64,000 nucleotides of DNA from Owenia fusiformis (Eukaryota > Annelida > Polychaeta > Sabellida > Oweniidae), in the NCBI GenBank assembly GCA_903813345.2, contig CAIIXF020000006.1:14572348-14636347 (forward strand). The letters are read 5' to 3'. The position numbers were made by a program, and so were the translations under genes. The notes beneath the pieces were generated by a model, which made no database searches, was not told the DNA's origin, and was given only the letters and a program-made list of their open reading frames with translations. Positions 25,501-63,475 of this stretch are shown here, one piece after another (position 1 is the stretch's first letter; each line of letters starts with the position of its first letter).

Positions 25501-28500
25501 TAAGAAAATGATTTTTGATAAATATATACAGGTCAGAATGACCTTCTTGTAACACGAGACACTGAAAAAATACAATTGCATTCATTCTATTTTAACTTTT
25601 TAAATTTTAATTGAATGGCTATAAGTGATTTTTTCAATGCTCTATTTCTATACGGCATAAGCATATAAAATCTGTCTACTCATATTTGAGTTATCTAACA
25701 TCACATTTGAAACAATAAATGGCAGACATTTTGAATGCGCCTATAGGACATGAGCCATGTCCCATGGCAAGAGAGACCTTCATGTCCTTCGCCCATAGAA
25801 CATAAGCCATGTCCCATGGCAAGGGAGACCTTCATGCATGACTTCACACAACCACAGAGGACTTCATGAGACTCAAAATGACTCAACAAGACCCAAAAGG
25901 ACTCAACAGGCCCATGAAGATATATTGGGCTATTGTGCAAGACACTTTGGTCTTCATAGGTCTCTAGAGGACTCAAAAAGGCTGGTGAAAAAATAGTGTA
26001 AGACCATTTAGGCATAAGCCTATAAAATCTGTCAACTGGTATTTGAGTTAGTCCTGGACACTAATAGACAGCTTCTCTACATCCTTATCGGACTTAATTC
26101 AATGGCATATTAATCCTTTCAGTGAGCCATACCTAACTAGTTTGGGTCTATTTACACCTTACGAGCATCAAAATTATATATTTATTTGTCTCACTCAGAA
26201 AGTAGTAATTATTACAATTAGCCTTTAGACCTCAGGGTAGGATATAAGAGGTGAATACTGTGTTCTGTTTAACATTATTGCTTTAATAGATAACATCAAC
26301 AAAGCAATAAGTACCTAATCCCCTCAGTTAGCCAAACTATACACTGACTATTTCAAACAATTTTAAAGTTTTGAACATTCTCAAATTGTAGCTACATATA
26401 TATTGCAACTGTGATTGTTTTAAATACCAGTTGCTTCAACAAAAATAGTTTCATCTTGTACCTTTATCTGAGTCCTCTGGTCTGGCCACCTCACAGAACA
26501 ACTCAAATATCTGCTTATTGTTCTTCCTGAAAAACATAAATAGTAGGTCTATATCAATAGATCAACAGGGTTTTACGAACAAGACATTGCTCTGATGCAT
26601 GAAAATATAATATTGGTATCCAAAATGAATAAACATTATTTTTAAGCCTGTTGGCTCTCAATAGTACACTTGGTTATTACAACTATTCAGCGACTCCCCA
26701 AACAGATGAACATTAATAGCTAATAACTCGTACTCATCACTCCTGGGAATTTTCAAAGAAATGTATATTGTTCAGAGTAGTGATTATTAGAATCATGTAT
26801 TTTACAAATACTTTATTTTATTTTCAAGCTTCATGGAATGGAAGATGCACATATTTTTATAATCAAGAAAACTTCAATTTTACAAATTATACTCTCATAG
26901 TAGTAGTTCAGACTAAATTCTTAGTGCATATTCATATGTTATTAGGTTATTTAAAAGCACTTCAGACTTCCTTGTTAAATAAGTACTAAAATCCAATGTT
27001 ACTGAGTGAGAACAAAAACAGAAACTGTAAATCAATAATCAAAATAATTAATATTATGTTTATAAATCTTGCACTTGAGATGTTCTAAATATAGCATAAG
27101 AATATTGAGGAAACTACTTTTACATGAAAAGATAAATTATCCTACTCCCTCAAAGTTCATGTAATTAAAGTTCAAAGCGTTTAAAAAGTAATGTGCTGAT
27201 ACTATTTTTGAATAATGACATACAAATACTGTATCACTGACTTATCTAATTTTTATGTGTGAGAAAATGTGTTATATAAATTCATTTTGACCATCTTTTC
27301 ATCATTGGCATCCTTTATGCATCTATACATTTGAAATAAAATCTACATAAATATCTTTAATTGAAAGAGAATATTTTCTTCCTTGACCTTAACAGGTGAC
27401 ACATAAGTTCCCTGTCTACCCTGTTAAAACCATTTTCTTTGACGTTTAACCTAGAAAAGCTGCAGGACAGAAAGTTGATACATGCAATAACATGAGGGTA
27501 TGCTGAACAGTTTGGCCCAATTTGGCTCAATTTAAAATATTGTTTATCAACACCATGGTTTTAGGTGGGGGTGTATATCAAGTTACAATGTTAGTATATT
27601 GTTACTAGTTTTTGAGTTTTAATTACTTTAACTGCCTGAGATTCAAAAGTTAGTCTCCAGTTTGTGACCATTCCCTGAAAATGGGAAATTGAAACATCTG
27701 AGAAAAAACAATGAAAATGTTGAGGCGCGATTCAATTTATAGATAATCTAGATATCAAACTGTCAGAGAGTTAAGAAGCTAACATTTTTGTAATTTAAAA
27801 TGGCTCATTTTTGTCATTACATTGAAATGTCAGGCCCCGGCTTCTCCTCTGAATCCATGCTTATGTATTTTCTATTTTATTTGAGTCCTGATGATATATG
27901 AATCAGATGTTTCAGAGGCAAGATAACAGAGAAGATGAATTTTTAATAAAGTAATGACTGTTATCAGTCAATGTGACCCGACAGTTCTAACACTCCCTTA
28001 TAATGGACCTTTCTAACCTAGATCTATTTCATACAAAACATATTTTCATGTTTAGCCAGAGAAAGTTAAACTAGATGATGGCAACTCCGCGGAGTAGCAA
28101 ATCCCAACGAACAAAATATCAATTACCGAATTCCAATCAATCATACTCATGACTTTGGTTAAAATTGAAAAATTTAGATTTCAGAATTGCGAATTCCTGC
28201 AAAGCAACCATTTTGAATTTTCTGAGGTACAAATCTGAAAAATAATACCATAATTGTGATCTACTCCAAAATTCCTTCAATTTGAGTATTATATAGCCAT
28301 ACGTTGAAGGGATCGAAAAATTATTGCAAAATTGTACATTAGACGGCCATTTTGAATTTTACGAGGCTCGAATCAGAAAAAAGATACAATATTTGCAATC
28401 TACTCTTGATTGCCTTTCATTTGAGTATAATAAAGCTATACTTCAGAAAGATCTAAAAATTAGTGAAAATTTCTGTTTTCCTGACCCCCCATACACGGCC

Positions 28501-31500
28501 CCTGGGGGTCAGGATGAAAAACACTGAATATGTGTGAAATAGATAGATGTTGCGAATATACTACCAAAATTTCAAACAATAATATTAATTACTCTGGTTT
28601 AGAATGAAAAATTTATGATTTTTGCGAAAAAGTCCCGCCATTTTTAAAGCGGGGGCCATCTTGAAAAAATTTTTTTTTGCGTAAAACTATTCATCAATAT
28701 ACATCTTTCCACCAAATATGAAGAAAATCCGTCAACTAATATTTTAGTTATCTTCCGGACGGGCAGACGGACGGACGGCTTCACTATATCCCTACCGAAC
28801 TTCGTTCGTTGGGATAATTCACCCAGTAAACATTCTATAGAAATATACCTAAACTATATTAAAGTTTATTCCAGGATATACATACATATGGTACTACCTA
28901 TCTTACATCTCAATACAATCTTACATGAACTGTTTTCAATAATACTCTACAAGTCACAGATAAATTAATTGATCATTCTTTATGAATCATAGATGCTGAT
29001 TTTTTAATAATGTTCATTTGCATTATACTTTATATTCCTGGTATTAGGTTTCAATCTAAATTGACATTCCAATCAATATTATTGATTGTTTATTCTGAAT
29101 CACATATTGATATAGACTAGTACAACGTGTGTATGTGAATACCTGAGTGAGAATCTTAAAATGTGAACACCTCTTTAAAGTGAGAATCTTAAAATGTGAA
29201 TACCTCTATGAGTATCTCAAAATGTGAATATCTTTTTAAGAATACCAGATAGGTTTTATTGTAGCGATTTCAAGCTATAAAAATTCAATACTACTAATAT
29301 CTAGCTATTGTTTACACAACATAACATGTAATAGAAACAGAATGCTTTGCTGAACTGTTATATGACAGGATGAAGATGAATCATAACCAATGCTATGTAA
29401 TTACCAGCAGATAACTGCTGGCCTGTTAATTATAGCAAACTGTCTCATCTTTTTGAGAGTAATTATAAATATCTACATAAAATTATATTGTAAAAATGAG
29501 TCCAATTTGTCGGTTTACTACATATACAAATCTGTATTTTGCAATAAGTGCATCACTGTATGAGCGGAAGTAGCGCATTCAAGTAGCATGGCACTGGGCT
29601 TCAGTGCCAGTATTGATATCAGATGCTTGATGTCGTGTGAAGACAATAGCATGTTAACGAAGAAGATGCTAATACCTTACCTCTCCCTTAATAAACTATA
29701 GCTGCTATCTGATTTTGTGTTGTTTTTTGTAAAACAACATCAATTGTCAAGGAAATTTTGCTAAATTTTATACCCGGAAGTGTTCGCTTCATTGCTCTTC
29801 AAATGGTCTTCAAACTAGAGGGCCGAAATGTAAATATCACTAGATTAGTTTTCTAACAGCTTAAACTTAAACTTCTCTCATTCCGACTCTCTTTTAATTA
29901 GGGCTGCCATCATTAGTCGGAACGTCGACTTGTCAGTCAAAATGCAAGTTCGACAACGAAGTCGACAAAATTCCCGTCATGTCGACAGCAAACGATATCA
30001 ATACTTACTTGAAAATATCCAAATGGCCCCAATACATTTCAATACACATTTCAACGTGTTATGTGCGCGTATTCTGCGGAAATATTGTTCACATTCATTT
30101 CATTTTCAAAAAATAAATTCACCCGGAAGTTCCCTTCATGACTTCTCTTCTCTCTTGCGAGACGTTGTACGAGATTTCGCCCGAGCAGTCGAAATAAATC
30201 CCGGTCGAAACATTGCAGGTATTTGTCCCATTTTCGTCTATAATATTCTATTAACTTGGCATTTAGTAACAATATTAGGCAATTACATACCAATATGAAT
30301 ATAAGTTATATGAAGCTTTTCCCCGATAGTGTATAAAGTGTGTTAATGAACCAGATAAAAATGTCAACATAAATTCTTCGCCTGTTCGATTGTCGACAAT
30401 ATTTTCGACAGCAGAGTTCGACTGTCGACACTGACATTTGAGTTCGATGGCAGCCCTACTTTTAATATGAGAGGCGAAACTTGAGGCACACAAAGAAGGT
30501 CAAAAGAATGTCAGAATTTGAATCAGACTTAGAATAAAAGGTCAAGAATAAGGTTTTCATCAAGGGATTTCAAATTTCAACATAATGAATCATATTTTTT
30601 GATTTTTTTTTAACTTTTTGCGACATCGGGTGTACATGATACCAGTACTGAAATTTGATGCCACTTGCAATGATCTCCTCTGATACTTAACCCATTTGAG
30701 AATAAGTTGAACAGATTTGAAAATTTTGCACCGAGTTGAGTATTTTGAAAGTCTTGAAGACTATGGTCGCAAAGGTAAGATGAGAATAATCAAGGGAGAA
30801 AGAGAACATTGTTTTGATAATTAATACATTTGTTTCATTTTAATTATTACAAACTGAAAGTCTAATATCTCTATGAGTCACTGTCATTAACATCATTAGT
30901 AGTATATAGAGGTTTAGTCACATTTTGTCAATTATTTGAAGTGTCTGCTGGTTGAGTAAAAGTTAGTCTGAATGTTACTGAACATGTATTAGTCATTGAT
31001 AAACATGTAGCTGGTTGTTGTTCAATAGTTGACTTCGTAAATCGTCTTACTGTATTACCTATTACTTATCTGGTATGGTAGAACATAGGAACTACATGTT
31101 TTCGATCTGATATGAGTTCTTTCAATATCAATAAAAGGGCTAAAACCAGGGCAATCAGTTATTTTCTATATTTCTCATTAAGTTAAAAATTTCCATCTGA
31201 ATGAATATAAGTTGCATCCCAAATTCGTGTAGACACCTTTTTGAATTAAAATCAGGGATTTTCTTGATTCTTGCCAACATGATTTGTACTTTTTACAGTA
31301 GCTATAATTCACACCTTTTAAATTTAGTTGAAATCTTACAGTAGGTTTAGATAACTAAACATGAATCATACCTCTATATATAAAGGGGTACCTAAATTAT
31401 TCTCACTAATTGACAATTGCCTCTTTTGAAAAGAAAATAACTTTTCTTGTAGGTTTCAATGCTTAACGCTAATATATTTTTCAGATTATAAACTAGCTAC

Positions 31501-32952: not shown

Positions 32953-34543
32953 TACAGGGTGGTCAAAAAAATGGAAACCCTAATACCATTTCCCTCATAT
33001 CTTTGTCATTTTATGAAATAACTCCCTGATACTTGTGTACATCATTCAATTTTCTACCAGCCTACTTTATGTCATGACCATCAGATTGATAGTCACAATG
33101 TTACAGCACTATAAAGAACATGCCCAGTGGACGCTATTGCGTTGTTGGGAAACCTGTACTCATCTTCTAAAATGTCCCTACCTGTGGGGATATGGCAGAG
33201 ATAGAGTATATGAGAATGACCTCAGGACAATTGCAAACCTCAAAAGTGAGATCATTTGTGTCATTCAGGCCATACCTGCTGAGGAATGCATTCGGGTCAT
33301 TGACAACTGTGCTGTTTTGCCTACAGCGCGATAATGCACATGCTATCTATTGCAAGACTTACGCCTGCCACAACCGTCACCATGTTAATCAGTGTTTTTT
33401 AAGTAGCGCAAGGATCCTGCCATGACCGTGGTAGTGTTATCGTGTAAGCCTGGTATAACCGTGACAGGCTGATATAACCGTGACAATGCTGTATTCTATT
33501 GCAAGGCCTGTCATGACCCTGGAAGTGTTATCGTGGAAGCCTGGCGCGACCGTAGCCTTTATTGTGGCTTGTAAGCGAATGTGAATATTATGTATAGTAG
33601 TAATTTTGATTTTGACATGATTAAGGTAGTTAAACACCATGATCATAGTATTAAACTGTTTAATTGTAATGAGGATCACTTAAAATTGTTAAGGATATTC
33701 CTGGCATTAATGTCATACATATTTACTAGTCATTGCAATACATTATAACGGTCATAGTAGAACAAGCCTAAATCTCTACATTACCACCCTCAAACCTGGC
33801 CTTGCAATACGTATATTACATTGTCACGGTCATACCAGGCTTTGCGATCCCATAATACATTGTCATGCATGGTCATGCCAGGTTTTCAAATACACATTGT
33901 CACGGTCAATTAGCAATCATAAATTTCTACATTACCACTCTCATACCCGAACTTGGAATACTATATCACATTGCCATGGCGGTCATACCAAGCCTTGCAA
34001 TACTATATTACATTGCCATGGTCATGCCAGGCTTTGCAATACACATTGTCACGGTTATAGCAGTCCAAATCGTAAATTTCTACATTACCACTCTCATACC
34101 TGAACTTGCAATACTATATTACATTGTCACGGTCATGCCAGGCCTTGCAGTACTATATTACATTGTTACGGTCATACCAAGCCTTGCAGAACTATATTAC
34201 ATTGTCACGGTCATACCAGGCATTGCAATATAATACAGCATTGTCGCGGTTATACCAGGCTTTCACGATAACATTACCACGGTCATGGCAGGATCCTTGC
34301 GCTACTTAAAAAACACTGAATAACATGGTGACGGTTACGCCAGGCGTTAGTCTTGCAACAGATAGGGTCTCCGATAATGGCCAAATCTGAAGCATGTTAT
34401 TCAAAGTGCTGTGGTCATGAAATGTGGTAGGGTGGTAGGAAATTGAATGACGTACAAATGTATGAAATATCAGGGAGTAATTCCTTAAAGTGACAAAGAT
34501 ATAAGGAAAATACAGGGTTTCCATTTTTTGACCACCCTGTACA
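32953..34543. mobile_element. 1.6-kb foldback DNA transposon with minisatellite core, TA target duplication
   Basis: The ends CAGGGTGGTCAAAAAAATGG (32954) and CCATTTTTTGACCACCCTG (34523) are inverted and bordered by TA on both sides, as in Tc1/mariner-group elements. The arms extend inward for several hundred bases: CAGGGAGTAATTCC/GGAATAACTCCCTG-type pairs, then AAGTAGCGCAAGGATCCTGC (33402) against its inverse at 34288. The core (33420-34290) is a tandem array of GTCACGGTCATACCAGGC-TTGCAATAC-type units. It carries no intact transposase. The ORFs between 33035 and 34309 are shadows of the repeats. Confidence 0.88.
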
Positions 34544-36956: not shown

Positions 36957-39900
36957 GTTTGTGGCTTTTATATTACATTGAATGTCTAGAATTTTTTTTG
37001 CATTAAGTCTCTGGATTACTCTCTGGTCCCATATCTGTTTCACATTAGAAGTGATGTGTAAGGGGGAATCAAGCGCTTGAATTTAGAAATGATAGTAAAA
37101 TGTTCATTATAAAGAAGCACCTGTTTGGACAATCATTACATGACAAATGTAGAATGTTGAAGGTGAAAATTAACTGGATATGTCTTGTACAGCTATTCTT
37201 TTATTTGGTACCTATCTATGATACAATATGTATTAGCATAGGCATGAAACATTATTATCCCATCGAACGAAGTTCGGAGGGATATAGGGAACGCCTCCGT
37301 CCGTCCGTCCGTCCGTCCGTACGTCCGTCCGTCCGTCCGTCCGTACGTACGTCCATCCGTCCGTCCGTCCGTCCGGGCAATAACTCAAATACCGTTGGCG
37401 CAATTTTGTTCATATTTTGTACACATATACCCTATGGGGGTAGAAGTTCTGCTCGAAAGCCGATTTTCAAAATGGCCGCTCATTTCAAAATGGCGGCCAT
37501 TTTAGTGCCGATTTTACAGTAATTTAGGTGTAATATGTAAAACTGTAATAGCAATATGTTTTAAATGTAAAAAAATTATAAAGGACATTAATAATGCTAC
37601 AAATGTAGATATTAAAGAAGCACATGGCAGCCATCTTGAAAAATGGCGGCCTTTACTCGTCATTTTACGAATTTTGCTATAACTCAAAAAATAGTGGAGC
37701 GATTTTGTTCATATTTGGTATGTGAATACTATAAGCATTGCACACTGTCTAAAAACACTTTTGGTAGAAGGCGGCCATTTTGAAAAATGGCCGCCATTTT
37801 AACTTATTTTACTATAACTCGAAAAGTAGTGGAGCGATTTTGTTTATATTTGGTATGTGAATACTATAAGCATGGCACACTGTCCTATGACACTTTTGGT
37901 AGAAGGCGGCCATTTTGAAAAAAAAATTGAAAACGTATTTTACTATAACTCGAAAAGTAGTGGAGCGATTTTGTTCATATTTGGTATGTGAATACTATAA
38001 GTATGGCACACTGTCCTATGGCACTTTTGGTAGAAGGCGGCCATTTTGAAAATTTTTTTGAAAAATGGCCGCCATTTTAACGTATTTTACTAAACTCGAA
38101 AAGTAGTGGAGTGATTTTGTTCATATTTGGTATGTGAATACTATAAGCATGGCACACTGTCTATTTCTAATGACACTTTTGGTAGACGGTGGCCATTTTG
38201 AAAAATGGCCGCCATTTTAACATATTTTACTATAACTCGAAAAGTAGTGGAGCGATTTTGTTCATATTTGATATGTGAATACTTTAAGCATGGCACATTG
38301 TCTAATAAAACTTTGGGGAGTAGTTGGCCATTTTGAAAAATGGCCACCATTTTTATGTGTGTAATTTTACAAGTACGTGTGAGATTTTTCAAAAATTTTA
38401 GAGGTGGCTACTTAAAAGCATATTATTTCTTCTGATGACAACTTGGCTAGTGAGCAACCATTTTGAAAATGGTGGCCTTTCTGGTGTGTTGTTTTATGAT
38501 ATTTGCTATTCGTTTGTAAAAATGCCAGCCATTTCTGTTCGATGGGATTCGCTACGCTTTGGCGTTGCCGTTGTTCTGGTTTGTGTTTATTATCCTATCG
38601 AACGAAGTTCAGAGGGATATAGGGAACTCCTCCGTCCGTCCGTCCGTCCGTCCGTCCGGGCAATAACTCAAATACCGTTGGCCCGATTTTGTTCATATTT
38701 TGCACACATATACCCAATGGGGGTAGAAGTTCTGCTTGAAAACTGATTTTCAAAATGGCCACTCATTTAAAAATGGCGGCCATTTTAGTGCCGATTTTAC
38801 AGTAATTTAGGTACTGCATATAAAACTGCAATAGCAATATGTTTTAAATGTAAAAAAGTTATATAGGACATTGATTAAGCTAGAAATGTAAATACAGAAG
38901 AAATACATGGCAGCCATCTTGAAAAATGCTTGCCTTTGAAAAATGGCTGTCAATTTTACATTTTTTACTGTAACTCGAAAAGTATTGGAGCGATTTTGTT
39001 CATATTTGATATGTGAATACTTTAAGCATGGCACATTGTCTAATAAAACTTTGGGGAGTAGTTGGCCATTTTGAAAAATGGCCACCATTCTTATGTTGAA
39101 GATCACAGTAGAGTTTCCCATAGGTGGCCATTATAACATTTTACCCTGTATCTTATTAACAATTAGTATCCAAGCCTAGTGCAACATACCACAGTGTTCG
39201 GGAGAGACTCGCCTAGCCTGCTATAACAATCTTGCCATGGGTTGTCCACCGAATTTTTGAAATAAATAAACTTGAAGACACTAACCCCCTCTATCGTCAG
39301 ATTTCTCAGAGAATTCTGGTAAAATCACCAAGGTCAAAATCACTCCGCCGCCAGCTTAAAATGAGATTTCCCACTGAACTCTGACATGTTTTCAGATAAA
39401 TTAGGACCTACCCTATAAATATTTATTCCCGATTCACTTCCCAAACGCTAGATGGCGCTCCAATGGGGTAGGGAAGGAGAAAATGACTTTTTATTCAGAA
39501 AACCAAATCACTAACGGTAACCGCTAATGTCCTTACTCAGGACTTTATCCTAATAGTAAACTGAATTAGTTTGTTTTCTTCCAACATGGTTATATTAGCA
39601 TTGTAGGCATTATCCCGATCACAATGATATATAACAATCCTATATTTGAGAAAAAGCACGGAGGAAAATTCAATCCTTATAGACACAGGTCCTTTTAGCA
39701 AAATTCAGGAAATTTGATTTTGAGATTTCTTGAAATTTCTTTGGGGTAGGGGTACACCTTACAGATTGCATCACAGATTGAGTACACCCAACTGAGGTGA
39801 ACATGGCCATATGGGGTATCATTGGAAAGCGATTTCTACTACCTTTCAAGTGATATCCATGCCAAGGCGTTCAATTGCATCTTATGACGTCATATTGGTA

Positions 39901-42900
39901 GGAAGAAACAAAGGTTCATTCAAAACTGCCCCGAAAACAATTGAATGGCACGGGAGAATGGAATTCGGGGTACTTGGCACAGTGGCCTCGCCCCCAAAAC
40001 ACCAAAATTGCTTCAAAATGTCACGATTTTGGTAGCATTGTTCAGCTAAGATACAGCCCTTTAATATTGTATGCGCTATTAGGCTTCTCAATGAACTAAA
40101 AAAACTCAAAAAGGGATAAAACCTTCAAAATGCCCCAAAAAAGCGCCTTCTAATAGTAAACTGAATTAGTTTGTTTTCTTCCAACATGGTTATATTAGCA
40201 TTGTAGGCATTATCCCGATCACAATGATATATAACAATCCTATATTTGAGAAAAAGCACGGAGGAAAATTCAATCCTTATAGACACAGGTCCTTTTAGCA
40301 AAATTCAGGAAATTTGATTTTGAGATTTCTTGAAATTTCTTTGGGGTAGGGGTACACCTTACAGATTGCATCACAGATTGAGTACACCCAACTGAGGTGA
40401 ACATGGCCATATGGGGTATCATTGGAAAGCGATTTCTACTACCTTTCAAGTGATATCCATGCCAAGGCGTTCAATTGCATCTTATGACGTCATATTGGTA
40501 GGAAGAAACAAAGGTTCATTCAAAACTGCCCCGAAAACAATTGAATGGCACGGGAGAATGGAATTCGGGGTACTTGGCACAGTGGCCTCGCCCCCAAAAC
40601 ACCAAAATTGCTTCAAAATGTCACGATTTTGGTAGCATTGTTCAGCTAAGATACAGCCCTTTAATATTGTATGCGCTATTAGGCTTCTCAATGAACTATA
40701 AAAACTCAAAAAGGGATAAAACCTTCAAAATGCCCCAAAAAAGCGCCTTCTAATAGGTTGAAGATCACAGTAGAGTTTCCCATAGGTGGCCATTATAACA
40801 TTTTACCCTGTATCTTATTAACGATTAGTATCCAAGCCTAGTGCAACATACCACAGTGTTCGGGAGAGACTCGCCTAGCCTGCTATAACAATCTTGCCAT
40901 GGGTTGTCCACCGAATTTTTGAAATAAATAAACTTGAAGACACTAACCCCCTCTATCGTCAGATTTCTCAGAGAATTCTGGTAAAATCACCAAGGTCAAA
41001 ATCACTCCGCCGCCAGCTTAAAATGAGATTTCCCACTGAACTCTGACATGTTTTCAGATAAATTAGGACCTACCCTATAAATATTTATTCCCGATTCACT
41101 TCCCAAACGCTAGATGGCGCTCCAATGGGGTAGTGAAGGAGAAAATGACTTTTTATTCAGAAAACCAAATCACTAACGGTAACCGCTAATGTCCTTACTC
41201 AGGACTATATCCTAAAACTTTGGGGAGTAGTTGGCCATTTTGAAAAATGGCTACCATTCTTATGTGTGTTATTTTACATTTTTTATTATAATTCAAAAAG
41301 TAATAGAGCGATTTTGTTCATATTTGATATGTGAATACGTAAGGGTTGCATACTGTCTTATGACATTTTGGGTAGTAGGCGGCAATTTTAAAAAATGGCC
41401 AGCATTTACATGTATGTGTGTGCAATTTTTTAAAAATTTTATATGTGACTATTACCTCTTTTGATGACAACTTGGCTAGTGAGCAACCATTTTGAAAATG
41501 GTGGCCTTTCTTTTGGGTGTTATATTATGATATTTGCTATATATTTTGTTTTGTAAAAATGCCAGTCATTTCTGTTCGATGGGATTCGCTACACTTTTGC
41601 GTTGCCATTGTTCTGGTTACCATTAAATATTATGCAATGCTTATTATCTGTTAAGTACTTAAAAAGAAACAAACACTTAGAATGCATTTAAGTTAAGAGA
41701 AACATCTAATGCAATATACTAGTACTCAAAGTGAATACTGTAGTTGACGAGATCAAAGATATTGCCAGATCGGGGTCTGCGGGGTAGCAGATGCATGCAT
41801 GCAATACAATGCCTGGCTAAAGATAGTACACAAAGTGAATACTTAAGTTAATGAGAATAAGTTGATAGCCAGATCAGGGCCTGTTGGGTAGCAGGTACAT
41901 ATATACAGTATTTTACACTAGCTTTATAATAAATCCAACTGCTATGTCAGAACATTCACCAAAGTGCAAACAAGTGTATCAGTATCTCTATGGTTCTAAA
42001 AAATGCTGTCAGATTACTGGTTGAATAATAATAGATATATATCAAATAAGCTCAACTTCCACAAAATATGTCAAAAGATGGGTATCGATATGACGAACTT
42101 TTTGAACACACGTTTCTCTAAAATCAGTCATCAAAAAATTCTGAAAATTTTACACATTGTCAATTTAATGGTGATCTTTTGAATGGTAACAATATACTTT
42201 GAAATAGATCCATATACTTTTCTCTATATTGTTTTAGAAAACACATCGGACACTTCTTTTGTTCTTGGTATCATATGTTCGGAATGAAATGAAACATCTA
42301 TCCGAACCTCATTGGAACAAAATGACATAAACACAACGTTTTTTGTTTTAATTTTTTGAATACTTTTTCTAAAATCAACCAAAATTTCCTTTGTACAACT
42401 ATATAATATTGGGAAGTCTAAGAAAATGTTGTATATGCTATTTTGTTCAAACAAGCTTCGGAAAGATGTTTTGTTTCATTCTCAAAAATTGGTAAAAAGG
42501 AACAAAAAACAATTGCATTAAAAAACAAAAAATGTTAACAAAAACAGTTATACAAAATATATATAATTTTTTTCGCATTAAATTGTTGTCAATCAGTCAA
42601 CATTACATAAGGGACCGTATTTTTCTACAGAATGTTTTCAATAACTGGTTTAAGAGAAAAACATTGTTGAATTCAGTTCTCCATATCGATACCAATCCTT
42701 AACAAAAGTTGTCAAAGTTCACCTCAACCACGTGAATTGTGAATATTGAAATAAACTGCACGAGTGTCCTTGACCTAGAATCAAGGACAACAACATTGGA
42801 ATTAAAATATAAACAAACTTTGGAATCGGCTAAAATACACGAGAAATACACAATGGCATCTAATATTAATGAAAGAAGGGGTAAGTTAAACTTTTGTGTG

Positions 42901-45900
42901 ACCGTTTGAGTAAAAATAAAATGTAGCTAACTAATGTAACAAAACTAGAATCGAACAGTCATCACATTGACATATATTGCAATTGGATGCATCCTCCCGA
43001 TAGATATCTATCATTGGGTCCTTTTCACACAATTCTTAAGTAATTTTATACCAAAATAGTCTGAAATGAATGAATGAGTTTTGTTTTCACATTTTACCAA
43101 CTCGCGATCTTCAAGGTCATGTCAGGGTCGTGAACTTTTGCTTTTGTATAACATTAGATCGATATATAATGGTCTCTTGTAGAAATAATAAAGAAAATTG
43201 TGAAAAACAAGTCTTTCAATTCGTGGGGCACCAGTTGAAACCAGGAAGCGAGTATATTGTCGATGTATATTTTGCCTTGAATAAGTCATCGATGCAACAC
43301 GATAAACTTTTGATTTTAGATATCACAAATGAGTTTGCGTCACAGGAAACGCAGGGGGCTTTTTTCTGCGTCCTCTCCCAGAAATCAGCGTAAAATACGT
43401 AAAAACGTGGCTAGCGCGGCCTCTGTAATAGTCAATTATACATATAATGATATTCAACGATATTTATAAATATGACAGGTCTTTCATAATCTGAAATTCA
43501 GACTGCCCTTCAAAAAATCATAGAGCTTTTGGAACAATATTGGTGTATCAGTTATTGTACATTTATGCCAAATATTACAACCTGAATTATGTTTGTTCTA
43601 TAGATGCATTAAGTAGAATTAGTTTCATACAACATTGTTTGTTATCCAGGATTAAGGGTACTGAACCCTATTTAGGAATCACGCATTTAAACATGTGACC
43701 GGGTTTCATAATTGTCATAACAGGTTGATTGATGATTCTTGGTTTCATAATCGTCATAACAGGTTGATTGATGATTCTTGAGCTATAAGGACACCTAGTA
43801 TAAAATGGAAATATGAAAACCATTAACTCAGTATTCGACACACGGTGCATAAATGAGCAGTAAGATTCTATGGTCACTTATTTGGAGTAAATCTGTTAAT
43901 TGGAATATAATTATATATTTCGAGTGATGACCAACATATAACTGGACAAAATGACAAAACCAACCATAGATTACTTTACGAAAAATGAAAAAGTCGCTGA
44001 TGACACGAGAGACAAACAGACTTTTGGAGAGATGGTTCAACCTGAATCAAAAAATGAAACCGTTTCAATAAAGGAATATTTTTATCAATGGGTTGATAAT
44101 AGTGTTTTACATGGGATAAAAAATGTTCGTGCCAGCAAAAACATACCACTGAGAATATTTTGGTGTTTGGCTGTTTTGAACTTCACTGTCACATTTGTAG
44201 TGTTTGGCAAACACCAAATATTATTATTCGTATCGATGCCAGTCAAACAAGTTCAAACAATCGGAGCAACACAATTTCAGTTTCCAACTGTCACCATCTG
44301 TCCTTTAAGTGCCTACTCGAGAAGCAATAAAGAAAAATTTCAAGGAAACAGTTCAACAGCATCCAGTCTTTTTTTCAACTCCTTAAACAATTTTGCTAGT
44401 AGCCAGTATTCATTTTCAACAAGTATCATCTCATCAAATCGTCAGTTCACCTATCGAAATATACCTTATGCTGAGCTGCAGCAAATGGGGTATCAGGCAA
44501 AAGATTTCATTGTGTCATGTCGATTTAAAAATGCTAGATGCACATATGAAAACTTTGAGGTACTCGAGTCTGTCGCATACCAAAATTGTTTTAGCTTTGT
44601 AGCTAACAAAACTGTAGATGTCGCTGGTGAACTAATGGGACTCTCCGTTGTTTTATTCACTGAAGATGAAGTGCATTCAGATGCTATAAAAGGTGTTGAC
44701 AAGTACAAAACTATTGCATATACTGCAGCTGATAGACCATCTGATTATAGCGCTGGCGTGAAAGTATTCATTAACCCCCCTGGTACTCCTATTGATGTTG
44801 CTACTGGTGGAATCACTGCAGCTGTTGGCATGACAACAGATATTGGATTAAATGTTGAGAATGTAAAATGGCTAAATGATCCTTATCCTAACCAAGCATG
44901 TGTGCTATCAACTGAGATTGAACATCACCATAATGACACTTACAGCCAAGAGACATGCTTCTCTAACTGTGTTCAGGACTTCTTGATAGAGAGATGTGGG
45001 TGCGGGTCAGTATCATATGCATCAACTCCAAAGGAATCTCCTCCTGAAGATATGTGTGGTTATTTTGCAAATGTTACAATGCGATCCTCCATCTCTGCTG
45101 GTATTTTTGAATGGATATGCTTAGTGCAGAATCAGAAAATGTTCAATGCAACCACAAAGGCAGAATGTAATTGCCCTCCTCCTTGTGACCAGATCACATA
45201 CAAGCCGACTATATCACAGGGGGTGTTTCTTCCAAGCTCCTACCAGTACTCATTCCTAGAGAGGCTAACAGGCACTGCATGTCCAGAGAACAGTTCTGAC
45301 CTGCCCAAATATTACTCCCTCCTAATGGGGGCTGTGATGCATGAAAATGGAACAAAAGTTGACTGTAACAAAGCCCTGGAGACTATTTTAGCAGAGGAAT
45401 TGGTATCTAAGAACTTTCTAAGGGTGAATGTAAAGTTAGCATCCACTTTGGTGTCAACTACAACAATGACCCCTGACTACACAGGGTCTGATCTGTTCAG
45501 TGACCTTGGGGGAACACTGGGACTGTGTCTAGGAGGGAGTATGATAGGTGTGGTAGAAATATTCGAATTACTTGGAGGATTGTTTGTGAAGACTTTATGC
45601 AAGATAAAAGCAACAACAGTGAAACCAATGGCTAAAACATCAAAAACAGCATGGTAATGGAGAGATCATCTATGATCTTGGGGGCTTGCTTCAAGGCTAG
45701 ATTGATTGCATTTAGTACGGAGCAGTAACCTTGTAATTGGCCTATGATATTTCTCTGCTTACAAATATACAAATTTCAGTTTTCAGTCATTTCAGATTGT
45801 GGCAAAGCCAAAAATAAGATTTATTTTGAATTTTACAAAAATTGATGCAACTTACTCCAAAATTGAGGTAGAAGTTTTTTTTTTGTATTTTGCCATTTGA

Positions 45901-48900
45901 GCATGCTCACGCGGTACTAACTTTGACCATTAATTTGAATTTTTGACCTACCAGATGTTTGGAAAACAAGGATTGCAAGTCTCATACTGCACTGTTTTTC
46001 TTCAAACTTTATCCATTAACCTCTTGAATACCCAGAATGACGGATATATCTGTCACAAATAAAATCCATTTGGAACCCAGAAGGACAGATATATCTGTCA
46101 CAGAATTTTTCAATAAAACTGCTCTTACTTCGGCATGTGTTATCCAAGCTTCACAAGTTATGTTTTAAAATGTATGTAATGGGTCCATGTTTACTATTCT
46201 TATAAAATCGAACATAAAAATATTGTGTTTGTAGATGGAAATATCAAAAAACTGGCAAAAAATGAATAATGCTCTGGTTTCAAACCCTTTTTAGAGGCTG
46301 GTATTCAAGAGGTTAAAAGCAAAATAAAATTGCCTTTCTGTCGGTGCATTACTTTATTGTAAAGAATCCCTTGTTCTGGCAGCGTTTTGGTCCAGGGCAC
46401 GCCTTAAGCGTCGGACAGCTGGTCATTATCTGGTTACTTTTGATACTGACCAGTTGATTTTTTCACTGGGTATAGGAAAATAACATTGCAACTGGTCAGT
46501 AATGCCTTTTTGACCAGCAGCTCTGGAATCCTTAGGGCATACACTGTTTTGGTCCCCAGCTGTTAGAAGTCCTCCTTACAGCTGGGGACCAAAATGCCGT
46601 TGGAAGTAGGGACCCTGTTTAAGAGAATATTGTACCAACAGAAAGGGATTTTAGTTATGCTTTGAATGGAATAAGTTTGAAGATAAATGATGCAGTATGA
46701 GACTCTATCCTTGATTTTCAAACATCTGGTAGGTCAAAAATTCAAATTAACGGTCAAAGTTAGTACCGCGTGATGCTGCCATCTCTCAAGATTTCTGACA
46801 GGAAACGATGCCATTGGTTCAAAACAAAGGAAATCAACAAAACACCACCCTAAGCCTGGGAGATGATTTTACTGGCCATGTACTATATTCTATTGAATTT
46901 TAATTTAAGAAATATAGGATGCAGAATTTGAATTTTTGACAATATTAGAAATATAATTCGATCATAATTGTATTATATATTTTTTCATGTACTATTATAT
47001 GCAAATTAAGAGTCAATGATACCACATCCTGCTAGGGTTTCTTAAGCACCCTGTTGAAATGAGCAATAATTTTTTTGTATGATCTGTAAAATGAAGCCTT
47101 CTGATTGGTCAGTTCTTGTGCTGTACCAATCTGTATTGCTACTGAGATTGTCCCCGTTGATCTTCTCCGTCGCAATACAGAAAATATTGGTACGGAGGGG
47201 ACAATCTCAGTTGCATTACAGAAAATCACATGATAAAAACGTTATTGAATGATTTGAAGTGCAATACAGGATATATTCAGTCTCGATATTCTGTATTGGC
47301 ACTCGACTTCATCTTGTTCCAATACAGAATTTCTCGAGCAGAATATATCCTGTTTTTCACTTCAAATCATTCAATAACTTGTAAAATGGTCAATATATCC
47401 AAATATATTTTATGTGGTATTGATAGATTATTATAATCAGTTCTAGCAACCATATCAATACTGTTAGTCTATGTGTATTGTTATATTTTATCGTCTACTG
47501 TCTATTGTAGTTTATTCCTGTCATTTACATAGACATGTATAAGTACACTTCCCTCGATAAGTTTGGCAAATGGAAATTCTCTTTCAGATCACTTATCAAA
47601 GTGCTTAATATCCTGAACTCTTGTTATTAACAAAATCTAAATTCAAACAGGCATTTGATATACTACCCAATGATAACTTCCAGTGTATTGATTGTAGAAT
47701 GATTATTATAGATTCTTGATTAGATATGATTATCCCATCGAACGAAGTTCGGAGGGATATAGGGAACGCCTCCGTCCGTCCGTCCGTTTGTCCGTCCGTA
47801 CGTCCGTCCGTCCGTCCGTCCGTCCGTCCGGGCAATAACTCAAATACCGTTGGCCCGATTTTGTTCATATTTTGTACACATATACCCTATGGGGGTAGAA
47901 GTTCTGCTCGAAAGCCGATTTTCAAAATGGCTACTCATTTCAAAATGGCGGCCATTTTAGTGCCGATTTTACAGTAATTTAGGTGTAATATGTAAAACTG
48001 TAATAGCTATATGTTTTAAATGTAAAAAAATTATAAAGGACATTAATAATGCTACAAATGTAGATATTAAAGAAGCACATGGCAGCCATCTTGAAAAATG
48101 GCGGCCTTTACTTGTCATTTTACGATTTTTGCTATAACTCAAAAAATAGTGGAGCGATTTTGTTCATATTTGGTATGTGAATACTATAAGCATTGCACAC
48201 TGTCTAAAGACACTTTTGGTAGAAGGCGGCCATTTTGAAAAATGGCTGCCATTTTAACATATTTTACTATAACTCGAAAAGTAGTGGAGCGATTTTGTTC
48301 ATATTTGGTATGTGAATACTATAAGCATGGCACACTGTCCTATGACACTTTTGGTAGAACGGCGGCCATTTTGAAAAAAATTTTGAAAAATGGCCGCCAT
48401 TTTAATGTATTTACTATAACTCGAAAAGTAGTGGAGTGATTTTGTTCATATTTGGTATGTGAATACTATAAGCATGGCACACTGTCTATTTCTAATGACA
48501 CTTTTGGTAGACAGTGGCCATTTTGAAAAATGGCCGCCATTTTAACGTATTTTACTATAACTCGAAAAGTAGTGGAGCGATTTTGTTCATATTTGATATG
48601 TGAATACTTTAAGCATGGCACATTGTCTAATAAAACTTTGGGGCGTAGTCGGCCATTTTGAAAAATGGCCACCATTTTTATGTGTGTTATTTTTTTTACA
48701 AGTACTTGTGCGATTTTTCAAAAATTTTAGAGGTGGCTACTTAAAAGCATATTATTTCTTCTGATGACAACTTGGCTAGTGAGCAACCATGTTGAAAATG
48801 GTGGCCTTTCTGGTGTGTTGTTTTATGATATTTGCTATTCGTTTGTAAAAATGCCAGCCATTTCTGTTCGATGGGATTCGCTACGCTTTGGCGTTGCCGT

Positions 48901-51900
48901 TGTTCTGGTTATTCATGTAATGTCACTTGTATTTCTCATTTTGAAGCAATAGATGAAAATTAAAAATATTTTGAAATGTTCCTAAACTACATCATCAAAC
49001 ATTCTGCTCACATAGTCTAGTAAGATAACATTTAATGCCAGGCAACTGAATGAGTGGGGATTAAGAAACACCGATTGATAGCTATAAAAAGATGTTTGAA
49101 AAATATCCTTTCTTGATTGAGATTATTACTTGGTGTACCACCTGTTGTGATTCTATTTTTCAAATATGCATGAAAGTGTATTCAATTTTTTTTTGAAAAC
49201 TACCACCAAAATAAAGCAAAAATGATGAAATTTTCAGGAACTTTTAAAACCTTAACCTCATATATTGTTCACCATGCGGCTTGTTTTAATTCAGTAAATA
49301 AATACAAGCCTTCACACTGGTGATTAGTCGATTACTCTGGTTACCGAAATGGTTCGTTTCGGTAACAAAATGACGGAACGTTGAAGGTACGATTTTATGT
49401 TCTTGTGTGTTCTTGTGTGTTCTTGATACAATATCTTTTGCCTGATATATATACCTACACGTAAAGTGATAATTTGTCTCAATTGGTCTGTGTCAAGATG
49501 GGACAGGCACCTTGTCTAAATATCAAAAGAATAATACATCCCTTGTTATGTATAATTTGATCCCTGGGTAATTATCCCATCGAACGAAGTTCGGAGGGAT
49601 ATAGGGAACGCCTCCGTCCATCCGTCCGTCCGTCCGGGCAATAACTCAAATACCGTTGGCCCGATTTTGTTCATATTTTGTACACATATACCCTATGGGA
49701 GTAGAAGTTCTGCTCGAAAGCTGATTTTCAAAATGGCCGCTCATTTCAAAATGGCGGCCATTTTAGTGACGATTTTACAGTAATTTAGGTGCAATATGTA
49801 AAACTGTAATAGCAATATGTTTTAAATGTAAAAAAATTATAAAGGACATTAATAATGCTACAAATGTAGATATTAAAAAAGTACATGGCAGCCATCTTGA
49901 AAAATGGCGGCCTTTACTCGTCATTTTCCGATTTTTGCTGTAACTCAAAAAATAGTGGAGCGATTTTGTTCATATTTGGTGTGTGAATACTATAAGCATT
50001 GCACACTGTCTAAAGACACTTTTGGTAGAAGGCAGCCATTTTTCAAAATGGCCGCCATTTTAACATATTTTACTATAACTCGAAAAGACGTGGAGCGATT
50101 TTGTTCATATTTGGTATGTGAATACTATAAGCATGGCACACTGTCCTATGACACTTTTGGTAGAAGGCGGCCATTTTGAAAACAATTTTGAAAAATGGTC
50201 GCCATTTTAACGTATTTTACTATAACTCTAAAAGTAGTGGAGCGATTTTGTTCATATTTGGTATGTGAATACTATAAGCATGGCACACCGTCTATTTCTA
50301 ATGACGCTTTTGGTAGAAGGTGGCCATCTTGAAAAATGGCCGCCATTTAAACGTATTTTACTATAACTTGAAAAGCAGTGGAGCGATTTTGTTCATATTT
50401 GATATGTGAATACTTTAAGCATGGCACATTGTCTAATAAAACTTTGGGGAGTAGTCGGCCATTTGAAAAATGGCCACCATTTTTATGTGTGTTATTTTAC
50501 AAGTACGTGTGCGATTTTTCAAACATTTTAGAGGTGGCTACTTAAATACATTATTATTTCTTCTGATGACAACTTGGCTAGTGAGCAACCATTTTGAAAA
50601 TGGTGGCCTTTCTGGTGTGTTGTTTTATGATATTTGCGCTTCGTTTGTAAAAATGCCAGCCATTTCTGTTCGATGGGATTTGCTACGCTTTGGCGTTGCT
50701 GTTGTTCTGGTTGGTAACTTGTTTTCTGGCAACAAATTAGAAGTTTAATGATTATTTCTGTTATGGGATTCCAGGAAACCACTTAGATTTTAATTCAGAT
50801 ACTTCACAAGGAGGAATTGGCAGCCATTGTTCAAACTCGGTATTCTGTTGCCTAGCATGGAACAATTTAGTAAAAATATTTCTATAAGGTTCTCTTTGGA
50901 CCAAGTATTTCTTTGGAAGATAGGTACTAGGAATATTATTGTAATATTCAAGTTTCCTTGGCAATTCTAGTCTTCAAATATATCACTAATGTACTCATAT
51001 CACGTGATTTGTTGATCATTTATCTTTCAACCCTTTATTTGTAATAGTAATAGTGCTAAATGTCAATTACCAGTTATTGATGTAGATCAACAGTACCAAT
51101 GCATTCTAAGTGTTTGCTAGCATATTATAGGGTGCATTATATTTAAAGATGGCTTTATGAAATAGAACAAATATTGGAGGTTTCATAATTATCCCATCGA
51201 ACGAAGCTCGGAGGGATATAGGGAATGCCTCCGTCCGTCCGTCTGTACGTACGTATGTATGTCTGTCCATCCGACGGGCAATTACTCAAATACTGTTGGA
51301 CCGATTTTGTTCATATTTTGTACACATATACCCTATGGGGGAAGAAGTTCTGCTCGAAAGCTGATTTTCAAAATGGCCGCTAACTTAAAAATGGTGGCCA
51401 TTTTAGTGCCGATTTTACAGTTATTTAGGTACAATATGTAAAACTATAATATCAATATGTTTTAAATGTAAAAAAATTAAATAGGACATTAATAAAGCTA
51501 GAAATATAGGTATTAAAGAAGCACATGGCAGCCATCTTGAAAAATGGCGGCCTTTACTCGCTATTTTACGATTTTTGCTGTAACTTAAAAAGTAGTGGAG
51601 CGACTTTGTTCATATTTGTTATGTGAATACTATAAGCATGGCACACTGTCTAATGACACTTTTGGTAGAAGGCGGCCATTTTGAAAAAAGGCCACCATTT
51701 TAGCCTTTTTTACTATAGCTCGAAAAGTAGTGGAGCGATTTTGTTCATATTTGGTATGTGAATACTAAAAGCATGGCACTCTGTCTAATGACACTTTTGG
51801 TAGAATTTTTTTTCAAAATGGCCGCCATTTTTATGTATTTTACAATAAAAAAATTAAATAGGACATTAATAAAGCTAGAAATGTAGGTATTAAAGAAGCA

Positions 51901-54900
51901 CATGGCAGCCATCTTGAAAAATGGCGGCCTTTACTCGCTATTTTACGATTTTTGCTGTAACTCAAAAAGTAGTGGAGCGACTTTGTTCATATTTGTTATG
52001 TGAATACTATAAGCATGGCACACTGTCTAATGACACTTTTGGTAGAAGGCGGCCATTTTGAAAAAAGGCCACCATTTTAGCCTTTTTTACTATACTCAAA
52101 AAGTAGTGGAGCAATTTTGTTCATATTTGGTATGTGAACAATATAAGCATGGCACACTGTCTAATGACACTTTTGGAAGAAGGTGGCCATTTTGAAAAAT
52201 GGCCGCCATTTTTGCTATATACTTTTTAAAAATGCCAGCCATGGCTGTTCGATGGGATTTGCTACACTTTGGCGTTGCTGTTGTCTAGTTTTATAATTGT
52301 TTTATAATTGTAGAGGCCCAATGCGCCATCTGTCACATCCAGTATGATTGATTATGAAAATGAAACTTTACGCAAGAAGTTGCGAGTCCTCAGAGAAGAA
52401 AACTCTCATCTTGTATCGCAGAATGGCACATTACTTAAGGAACTGGAGAAAACTGGGATCCAACTGCAAGAATCCAGCATGCAGGTATTTACCCTTGGCA
52501 AGAACTTTACTTTGTCTCCACTCTCTATTATTGTGTTAATAGTAGGAGTCACATGTTGTTTTGAACTTGTTTTTCACTTTCCAAGTTGTATGTATCTTTT
52601 TTAATACATGTTTTAAATAAAGTCTCTTGCTCAACATGTCTTTTCAAACTTTTTTGTCTCGACATACATTTGGCCAAAATGTTTGCAAAAATAAGTATTC
52701 ATTCCGGTGGTGAAGAAATACATGTTTCAAGAGGATTAACAATCCAGGTAGAGATCTTGCACATATTATAAAAGTAAAACAATGAAGTTATAGGCAAAAC
52801 AATGAATCAAGATCTAAGAGGTGATTTATTAAAAAACTAAGTTCAAATCTCTTGTATTACAATGTTATGGTATCCTTCATTTAGATATTTGAAGGTGTTC
52901 TTAAGATTCTATCCGAAGTGAAGAGAAAATGTGTTTTATATTTTTTCACTAAAATTTGACTAACTTGTCTGTATCTATCCGAAGTTCACAATTTATTTAT
53001 TGATGTGTATAATGATAGTCTTCATTTATACAAAGATGTACATATGTGCTAAGTTAACCATATTAAAATGAAGATCAAGCACATTATATGACATCCTCAA
53101 AGTGTAAAATAGCAAAATACCAAAAGTTAAGTCTGCTTTTCAGGTTCGCCAGCTCAGCAATGAGGTTTCACTGACAAGAAGTATGAAGCCAGAATATGAG
53201 GAGAAAATAATAAGCCTTGAGGCAGAGACAGAAGCTCAGGAAAAAGCCTTGAGGTAAAGTTACTTTTTTCAATTTGAAATTCCTTTGATACTTCCTCTTG
53301 CCCTTAATCAAGACCCAAAGTTCAACAGAATTAAAAGATATGAATCAATGTGTGTTATTTTAAAATGAAAACTTTAGTCAAAGTTTGTAAAATGGAGCAC
53401 CTTTGCATGTGTAACATCTCCATACATATTACATGGAACACTTTAAGGTTCAGTTGAATCAGTTATCAATTAGATTTATGTAAAATGGATTTCAAAAGTG
53501 AAACACGATTTTAAGGTACCAGAGGCATTAATCCCCAATTAACTTACACATGACTTATTTAATATTCACAGGGATGCAGAAGAGAGGTGTGAACTATCAC
53601 AGAAAGAGTTATATGAGACGAAGAAATCCCTGCAATATATACACACTGACTCGCATACAACCAAACAGTGCCTACAGAAATTACAACTAGAATGTGCTGA
53701 TCTGAAGCGAACTGTGGATGAAGAGAGAAAAATCAGAAAAAGGTAACAAGTACTAATCATTCTATTGAATGGTTACAATTGAAATACAATGGACAATTTT
53801 AAGATTTGCCCATAGGATCCCAAAATCGTATACATGTATTTTTAATATGAAGTAAAATGTAGTATTTGTGACTTATTTAACACAGAGCATTGATGTCAGA
53901 CACTACTTTTTACAATAGATATATTTTTGTTTAATTTTCAGAGCAGAAAATCAGCGTGATGATGCACTTCAAAATGCTGAAGTTTTACAAGAAAATCTAG
54001 AAACTTATCAAAGAAGAAGCCGGGATAATATACAGAAGGTATCAGAATATTTTGAAAAATTAAAATCATCATTTGCTTATTTATTCGACGAAACCATATG
54101 TAGTGTGTACATATATTTTGGCAGCTATCCATAGTTCTAAAAGTACAATGTATATGAAAAGGAGCAACATTTGGACTGAATTGCAAATCTGTTGTTCTGC
54201 TCTCACTTATCTTTTTTTCAAATAAAAGTATAAGTTAACATATTTCATGAATGTACCCCATCATTTGCTTATTTATGAAATGAAATCATATACAATGAAA
54301 TCATATATAGTGTGTACATGTACATATATTTGGATCCCTGTTTTTTAAATAAGAGGTAAGATTAAAACAGATGTATATTGATGTAAGTCCACTCAGACTG
54401 AAATGTAGAAGTATTAGATTATGTTTTGGGGACTTTATTGTCATATTATCCCAGTCCCTATTCACAATTAGCAACATAGCACTGAGGACCAGCTGCGAGA
54501 CAGGCTAACTCAGGCCAACTCCAACCTAGATGATCTAAGAGAGAGACTTGCTACATCTACCAAAGAAAGAGAGGAGCTTAGAGTCAATCTAGCACAAGCT
54601 AATAGGGAGAGGGAAGACTTTAGAGTTAGCCTAGCAGAGTCCAATACTGAGAGAGAAGACCTCCTGGAGAATACCATGCAACTTAGATCTCATGTTACTG
54701 ACCTTGAAGAGGAACTGAGGTATGAGAAAAAGTTATTTTTCCTACTCTTACGAAGATGTGATATACATACCTGTATTAAATGAATATTAGGAAATGTGTC
54801 AATCTGATTCAGAGATATTTCAGAACAGTTAGCTCAGAATACAATGCAATTTAGCTCTGAGGTAAGTGATCTAATAACTATGATATCCATCTAAAATTAA

Positions 54901-63410: not shown

Positions 63411-63475
63411 CGACCAGGCATCCGTCCGTTGGTCCGTCCGTCCGTTGGTCCGTCTGTCCGTTGGTCCGTCCGTCA
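63411..63475 (+). repeat. CCGT/TTGGTCCGT microsatellite
   Basis: CCGTCCGTTGGT is repeated about four times after a GGGATCGACCAGGCAT lead-in. It resembles the CCGT tract of the CCATCGAAC family, but the flanking ends of that family are not recognisable. Confidence 0.8.

Follow-up and report, generated by a model that had tools for sequence, protein, structure and literature searches.

A probable family of non-autonomous Helentrons with a satellite-like core in one predicted intron of Owenia fusiformis

Five copies of a repeated element found in a 64,000-nt stretch of Owenia fusiformis DNA (contig CAIIXF020000006.1; hereafter the window, within which all positions are numbered) constitute, very probably, a family of HINEs, that is, non-autonomous Helentrons, which are rolling-circle DNA transposons and which in this case carry a short satellite-like array. 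The assignment was made from the letters of the DNA, where a 5' inverted repeat, a (GTCC)n tract and a satellite-like core, with no target-site duplication to be seen, correspond to the anatomy published for HINEs. The element looks like an ordinary new family in a known class and not like a new kind of element.

An earlier note on this DNA had described five same-orientation copies of something that was "not a standard MITE", and both statements were borne out: all five copies lie on the + strand, with sharp ends and unrelated flanks, and the element is of a mobile type whose ends are fixed and which has inverted repeats, a microsatellite on its 5' side and a core resembling satellite DNA. 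Four of the starts coincide with those claimed, and the second copy begins at 38589 instead of 38588. Two copies (c1 and c2) do stand head to tail, separated by 7 bp (38582-38588), and the reversed, diverged relative (r6), claimed at 28072-28822, was also recovered, at the limits given in Table 1. Its location within a "neighbouring gene" was not confirmed, no exon being recognised around r6 in the list of ORFs. The insert that breaks c2 is separate from the element; it contains direct repeats ordered A-B-B-A (A of ~460 bp, 99.1%; B of ~607 bp, 99.8%) and a 53-bp stretch of c2 is directly repeated on either side of it (39044-39096 and 41213-41265, 52/53 identical).

Table 1. Positions of the element copies, of the parts of copy 1 and of the surrounding features within the window
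Feature	Position	Strand	Remarks
Relative (r6)	28069-28818	-	Diverged; end architecture as in c1-c5; different two-copy array of ~139 bp
Predicted intron	36957-52313	+	15,357 bp; coiled-coil gene; contains all five copies
Copy 1 (c1)	37254-38581	+	1328 bp; 5 monomers, U0 and a degenerate tail
5' subTIR of c1	37257-37268	+	Pairs with 37272-37283 as 5' inverted repeat
(CCGT)n microsatellite of c1	37296-37374	+	
U0 of c1	37376-37508 (approximate limits)	+	Adjoins the microsatellite
3' subTIR of c1	38537-38548	+	
3' hairpin of c1	38551-38568	+	GCTACGC-TTTG-GCGTTGC; its distance to the 3' end (CTGGTT) is 13 bp
Copy 2 (c2)	38589-41618	+	Most diverged among the five; 2 monomer cores remain; broken by nested insert
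Nested insert in c2	39097-41212		~2.1 kb
Copy 3 (c3)	47729-48910	+	1182 bp; 4 monomers
Copy 4 (c4)	49571-50712	+	1142 bp; 4 monomers
Copy 5 (c5)	51188-52290	+	1103 bp; 4 monomers via internal duplication
FaNaC-like channel ORF	43951-45657	+	Intact, single-exon, 568 aa; start codon read; between c2 and c3, outside the element

Ends of the element and its class

All six copies (c1-c5 and r6) read ATT-ATCC at their 5' end, where the subTIR comes directly after ATT; its 12-mer, ATCCCATCGAAC, is exact in four of the five copies and has 1 mismatch in c2. In c1 the 5' inverted repeat is ATCCCATCGAAC-GAA-GTTCGGAGGGAT, with a DNA fold of -6.6 kcal/mol. The string CGAAC-GAA-GTTCG is exact in four of the six (c1, c3, c4 and r6), and the fold-back forms in every one of them, at -2.8 to -6.9 kcal/mol. 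The 5' (CCGT)n tract had been said to vary in length, and it indeed covers 23-79 bp across c1-c5 (79, 27, 59, 23 and 46 bp, in that order), r6 having a short tract.

At the other end, the 12-mer GTTCGATGGGAT is exact in the five copies, and it pairs with the 5' subTIR at 12/12 positions in c1, c3, c4, c5 and r6 and at 11/12 in c2. The 12-bp inverted termini of the earlier note are thus present as a 12-bp repeat that is terminal at the 5' end only, since beyond the 3' repeat there is further element sequence (33 bp in c1-c4, 32 bp in c5 and r6), comprising a hairpin and the end CTRG-TT, which is read in all six copies. The hairpin is short (6 pairs, one mismatch); it folds as expected in four of the six (c1, c3, c4 and r6), takes another fold in c2 and has all but disappeared in c5, and its stem shows one double change between the c family and r6 (G-C to T-A). 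When the six copies are compared in pairs, their mean identity at the 5' end is 86% between -3 and +36, against 28% in the 57 bases outside, and at the 3' end it is 84% for 44 bases, against 28% in the 59 bases outside, both outside values including the mutually facing flanks of c1 and c2, which contain the other element. Degenerate patterns of the end repeats, composed after the copies had been seen and fitting r6 too, occur 6 and 6 times, compared with 0.007 and 0.003 expected under a first-order Markov model. No target-site duplication was visible by eye in the flanks of the six copies, and TT stands at both ends of each, the boundary being read from occupied sites.

According to two papers (PMC7492417, PMC4067079), HINEs have on the left an 11-12-bp subTIR, an adjacent complementary IR and a microsatellite, often GTCY/GTCC; in the centre, repeats of 140-180 bp on average; and on the right flank, a 3' subTIR and a palindrome, with a preference for TT and no duplication. 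In the Owenia copies we found subTIRs within the range of 11-15 bp (the 5' one near the terminus, the 3' one tens of bp inside), an adjoining IR, a left microsatellite and a 3' stem-loop. The rule of PMC4067079 is that a family shares 11 identical subTIR bases and a subfamily 80% identity over the last 60 bp. Over those 60 bp, c1-c5 are 84-100% identical to each other and r6 is 64-67% identical to them, while the r6 subTIR has 11 of 12 bases in common with theirs, not 11 consecutively; by this rule, c1-c5 would be one subfamily and r6 would belong to the same family at most.

No Rep/helicase ORF was found by Pfam in 17 of the 18 window ORFs of at least 110 aa. This protein would be supplied from another place in the genome by an autonomous Helentron and would recognise the 5' subTIR/IR and the 3' subTIR with its hairpin, nick, displace a single strand and stop at the 3' hairpin; the displaced strand would then be pasted into a T-rich site, where no target-site duplication would arise, and the satellite would be copied as part of the element.

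Two other classes were weighed. Derivation from a canonical Helitron instead of a Helentron is very unlikely, even if A/TCC...CTRG/T can be read in all six copies, where 10-11 nt separate the hairpin from that end, and PMC4067079 describes canonical Helitrons as having A/TC...CTRR/T letters and, at about 11 bp from their 3' end, a hairpin. Against this derivation, conservation extends 3 nt beyond the A of the TC and 2 nt beyond CTRG, the paired subTIRs with a 5' IR are the layout of HINE/DINE-1, and both the microsatellite and the satellite core match those of HINEs. Moreover, canonical Helitrons are not known to have terminal or subterminal inverted repeats, whereas the 12-bp subTIRs of these copies are paired and have changed together at one position, being ATCCCATCGAAC/GTTCGATGGGAT in the c family and ATCCCAACGAAC/GTTCGTTGGGAT in r6. 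There is scarcely any chance that the element is a cut-and-paste MITE that captured satellite DNA: its perfect or near-perfect 12-bp inverted repeat and its size of about 1.1-1.3 kb (the c2 insert discounted) would suit one, but a TIR MITE is defined by terminal inverted repeats with target-site duplication, and here the 3' repeat is not terminal, the element continuing beyond it for 32-33 bp that include a hairpin, and no duplication is visible in any of the six. MITE is also an older label for pearl-like elements.

The satellite-like core

The internal units, previously given as 131-146 bp, are spaced 131-147 bp apart in c1, c3, c4 and c5 (the interrupted c2 being excluded), save for two deviating steps, namely that from U0 to U1 (299 bp) and one of 242 bp in c5. 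The palindrome that each unit was claimed to carry is often broken: this 16-bp sequence has nine exact copies in the window, and its arms are perfectly matched at 10 of 27 hand-listed sites, some of which are alternative registers of one junction. Compensatory maintenance of the palindrome was considered and rejected, as the changes are unpaired (CCATCTT, AAAAAGG) or fall in the 2-base centre.

In a tree of 19 monomers, grouping by position was observed for c1, c3 and c4, the three youngest copies: the U1s of c1, c3 and c4 fall together, and so do their U2s, further groups being c1U4 with c3U3 and c1U5/c3U4/c4U4 (with c2U1). Strong support was obtained on only 4 of the 16 inner branches, and c4U3 stands apart from its counterparts. 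Later gains of units by individual copies, c1 and c5, can be assigned to A-rich stretches; in c5, the internal duplication matches 51469-51832 to 51846-52213, with 94.9% identity over 369 columns.

U0 has 19-45 bp in common with the monomers and is found in r6 as well. Because the monomer and the 5' region of the element have a segment in common, which r6, with its different array, also contains, the comparison favours an array born from the element's own sequence rather than captured. The shared segment is a point of modest interest.

Host intron, ages and orientation

That the five copies occupy one intron was upheld on a phase-consistent gene model joining two + strand ORF segments, from which the intron is predicted with donor AAAG/GTTTGT after 36956 and acceptor TTGTAG/AGG before 52314, both phase 0. 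The spliced gene model matched no Pfam family. The last copy ends 23 bp before the predicted acceptor exon; its conserved CTAG was considered as a splice acceptor and discarded, since from there, 25 nt upstream of where the exon starts, the reading frame would be shifted. The ORF nested in the same intron belongs to the amiloride-sensitive / FMRFamide-gated sodium channels (Pfam ASC, E = 1.3e-68, full profile), its best PDB match being an FMRFamide-gated Na+ channel (4.7e-34).

Identity is 96.5-98% among c1, c3 and c4, about 92% for c5 and 86-88% for c2. Because these are three divergence classes, the copies are, to judge from their sequences, separate insertions of different age and not one tandem spread.

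From the common orientation, the earlier note had derived either local or tandem spread or selection against antisense copies. The orientation is not significant (two-sided p = 0.06 for five of five copies; p = 0.22 for five of six, with r6), and such selection is without statistical support here. Selection against antisense copies, or else strand-specific insertion, would account for orientation only and would fit the HINE reading; all five intron copies run parallel to the inferred gene and to the nested channel ORF, but these p values and the report that Cg_HINE elements occur in either orientation in the genome of the oyster (PMC7492417) make it unlikely. A specific form of strand bias, to which we likewise assign a low probability, is that single-stranded intermediates of Helentrons are inserted only into one strand of a transcribed intron, for instance the non-template strand while it is exposed, thus aligning copies of different age with the host gene. 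Tandem or segmental duplication carrying one insertion across the intron would agree with the shared orientation and the 7-bp gap, but is already largely refuted and hardly credible, as the flanks are unrelated (28% identity), the divergence classes are three, and c1 is 87.7% identical in the 5' core to the adjacent c2, against 97.9% to c3, 9 kb apart.

Relation to known elements

The coupling of an inverted repeat to satellite DNA, pointed out in the earlier note, is not new, being already known in Cg_HINE, pearl, DTC84 and DINE-1, and the HINE class is described from molluscs and insects (PMC7492417, PMC4067079). Cg_HINE of Crassostrea gigas (PMC7492417) is similar in its left subTIR, IR and microsatellite (GTCY/GTCC in several Cg_HINEs), in its array (140-180-bp repeats, mostly up to 5) and in its right subTIR and palindrome, and is described as preferring TT and making no duplication; compared by description and not by element sequence, the Owenia element differs in its monomers of 131-147 bp, which share a segment with its own 5' region. 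Among bivalve families (PMC7492417, PMC5139131), pearl has short internal arrays of up to six ~160-bp repeats and DTC84 a conserved palindrome near its repeat junction, whereas the Owenia palindrome is often broken, the comparison again being by description only. PMC4067079 gives 12-15-bp subTIRs, a 3' stem-loop and a T-rich target for DINE-1 (Drosophila) and HINE-Mo (mite), and for DINE-1 also a microsatellite and an IR whose 5' side sits in the 5' subTIR. However, the inner repeat of mite HINEs is about 38-60 bp from the 3' end, as opposed to 32-33 bp in Owenia, and autonomous partners of DINE-1/HINE-Mo are known (PMC4067079), while none was found among the scanned window ORFs.

Exact DNA searches gave 0 matches for the 5' end pattern in viral contigs and for the 3' hairpin tail and the microsatellite plus U0 in viral, bacterial and archaeal contigs, animals being outside their scope; the last pattern matches three of the five copies in the window itself. 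When the subTIR strings were searched in papers, the family's letters were not found in print, the sole match being on kiwifruit. With E values of up to 1 allowed, Rfam matched nothing inside the elements; elsewhere in the window, two miRNA families were matched three times, each time below threshold.

The copies offer a clean local example of rolling-circle elements bringing satellite monomers into genes, to which the origin of the array from the element's own sequence and the gains of units would be modest additions to the known picture. If entry on one strand were true, this 15-kb intron, with its five insertions in three divergence classes, would have recorded strand-specific insertion.

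Ends and internal organization of the elements

All five + strand copies (c1–c5) were found at the positions reported in the earlier note (table). When these and a diverged, reversed relative (r6) were anchored on the 12-bp inverted repeats near each end (subTIRs) and set side by side ungapped at both ends, the boundaries proved abrupt: mean pairwise identity at the 5′ ATT-ATCC was 86% over the 39 bases inside and 28% over the 57 bases outside, and at the 3′ CTRG-TT 84% inside and 28% outside, these means including the facing flanks of c1 and c2, which contain parts of the neighbouring element. The two degenerate 12-mer forms, written after the copies had been seen, each occurred 6 times against an expectation of <0.01. 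A target-site duplication was visible in none of the six copies in the flanks of this alignment.

From 5′ to 3′, the element consists of ATT, the subTIR, a second arm forming a fold-back (CGAAC-GAA-GTTCG, with outer ATCCC/GGGAT), a short spacer, a (CCGT)n tract (23–79 bp in c1–c5), a segment beside this microsatellite (U0), a spacer, 2–5 satellite monomers (U1, U2 and so on by position; spacing 131–147 bp, measured in c1, c3, c4 and c5), a degenerate tail (c1–c4), the 3′ subTIR, an 18-bp hairpin and CTRG-TT. The inverted repeats had been described as terminal; this module order places further element sequence beyond the inner repeat on the 3′ side, and the element is asymmetric. The same end layout encloses a different two-copy array in r6, in which one base of the 5′ subTIR and the matching base of the 3′ subTIR are both changed relative to c1–c5. 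Its 3′ hairpin (GCTACTC-CGCG-GAGTTGC) preserves the stem through one double change, a small number, and the alternative fold in c2 and near loss of the hairpin in c5 count against pairing.

Features of the window
Feature	Position	Strand	Remarks
c1	37254-38581	+	element copy
c2	38589-41618	+	element copy
Insert in c2, with its flanking repeats	39044-41265		insert ~2.1 kb; direct repeats ordered A-B-B-A
c3	47729-48910	+	element copy
c4	49571-50712	+	element copy
c5	51188-52290	+	element copy
r6	28069-28818	-	diverged relative
Amiloride-sensitive / FMRFamide-gated sodium channel ORF	43951-45657	+	intact, single-exon; between c2 and c3 in the predicted intron
Reverse transcriptase ORF	3302-5665		RVT_1 match; open across 787 aa
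Reverse transcriptase ORF	6409-9334		RVT_1 match at 7243-8661; broken over frames
Tandem array	2201-3067		~162-bp units, AAAATGGCTGCC motif
Tandem array	11186-11756		206-bp unit, 96% matches
Tandem array	33769-34260		39/153-bp units
Apparent inverted repeat	24925-25058		sub-threshold MIR6135 matches, both strands
(TCCG)n tract	63421-63474		isolated

Spread of the copies and history of the array

The common orientation had been attributed to local spread or to selection against antisense copies. It has p = 0.06 for five of five and p = 0.22 for five of six, the sixth copy being r6; given unrelated flanks and three divergence classes, neither a single local spread nor selection is demonstrated. 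Over 285 columns of the 5′ core, c1, c3 and c4 are mutually 96.5–97.9% identical, c5 matches them at 91–92%, and c2 matches the other four at 86–88%; the tail, present in four copies, is concordant (96–98% among c1, c3 and c4; 84–86% for c2). Although separated by just seven bases, c1 and c2 do not form a closest pair.

A tree of 19 monomers, strongly supported at only 4 of its 16 inner branches, groups the U1s of c1, c3 and c4, their U2s, c1U4 with c3U3, and c1U5 with c3U4, c4U4 and c2U1; c4U3 finds no resolved place, and c2U2 lies beside the U1s without real support. On the plainest reading, the array would predate the movement of these copies, c2 would have lost inner units, and later gains would be confined to single copies: c1 carries one extra unit, with its junction within an A-rich stretch, and c5 a ~370-bp duplication whose junction bears an A7 tract.

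In six of six compared pairs, U0 and a monomer outscored every one of 500 shuffles, over alignments of 19–45 bp (for example, 36/45, scoring 45 where the best shuffle reached 24). Despite its different array, r6 has a U0 segment at the same place (47/61 with c3U0, 34/41 with c3U1). Most simply, the monomer would have arisen from the element's own 5′ region; alternatively, U0 could be a degraded initial monomer left over from an earlier array, consistent with r6 resembling U1 about as closely as U0.

Predicted host intron and other repeats

Two + strand ORF segments of a coiled-coil gene, to which Pfam gave no family name, predict a 15.36-kb intron (phase-0 donor after 36956, phase-0 acceptor before 52314), of which the five copies, the c2 insert included, occupy 7,785 bp. 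The end of c5 sits 23 bp upstream of the predicted acceptor exon (52290-52314), so its tail may supply the branch-point region. On either side of the insert (A of ~460 bp at 99.1%; B of ~607 bp at 99.8%), 53 bp of c2 sequence, the monomer palindrome among them, are directly repeated; a flanking duplication of this length matched no element that we could name. The two best PDB matches of the channel ORF are FMRFamide-gated channels from a mollusc and an annelid, pointing tentatively to a lophotrochozoan origin for this DNA.

Elsewhere, the reverse transcriptase ORFs presumably belong to non-LTR retrotransposons. The 2201-3067 array is possibly the core of another element resembling a HINE (a non-autonomous Helentron, a rolling-circle DNA transposon), the (TCCG)n tract perhaps a remnant of another HINE left end, and the region with the MIR6135 matches may be a MITE-like element or a small foldback.

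Probable relationship to known Helentrons

Each feature first considered striking (inverted repeats joined to a satellite, the GTCC tract and the unit palindrome) has a precedent among HINEs. PMC7492417 describes 11 Cg_HINE elements of the oyster Crassostrea gigas that are built from the same modules, with 140–180-bp repeats in arrays that mostly contain up to five, insertions in both orientations and a preference for TT. PMC4067079 defines HINEs and DINE-1, and reports similar elements in sea urchin and molluscs, the sea urchin and some insect ones formerly annotated as MITEs. According to PMC5139131, DTC84 has a conserved palindrome close to the repeat junction, and a review (PMC12628747) treats rolling-circle replication and microhomology as routes of array growth. 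Compared with mite HINEs, the 3′ repeat here sits a little nearer the end, which, with the weak monomer tree, slightly reduces confidence in the assignment. The copies c1–c5 are a genuine and sharply bounded family that very probably belongs to a known class, the HINEs, a membership well supported by anatomy.
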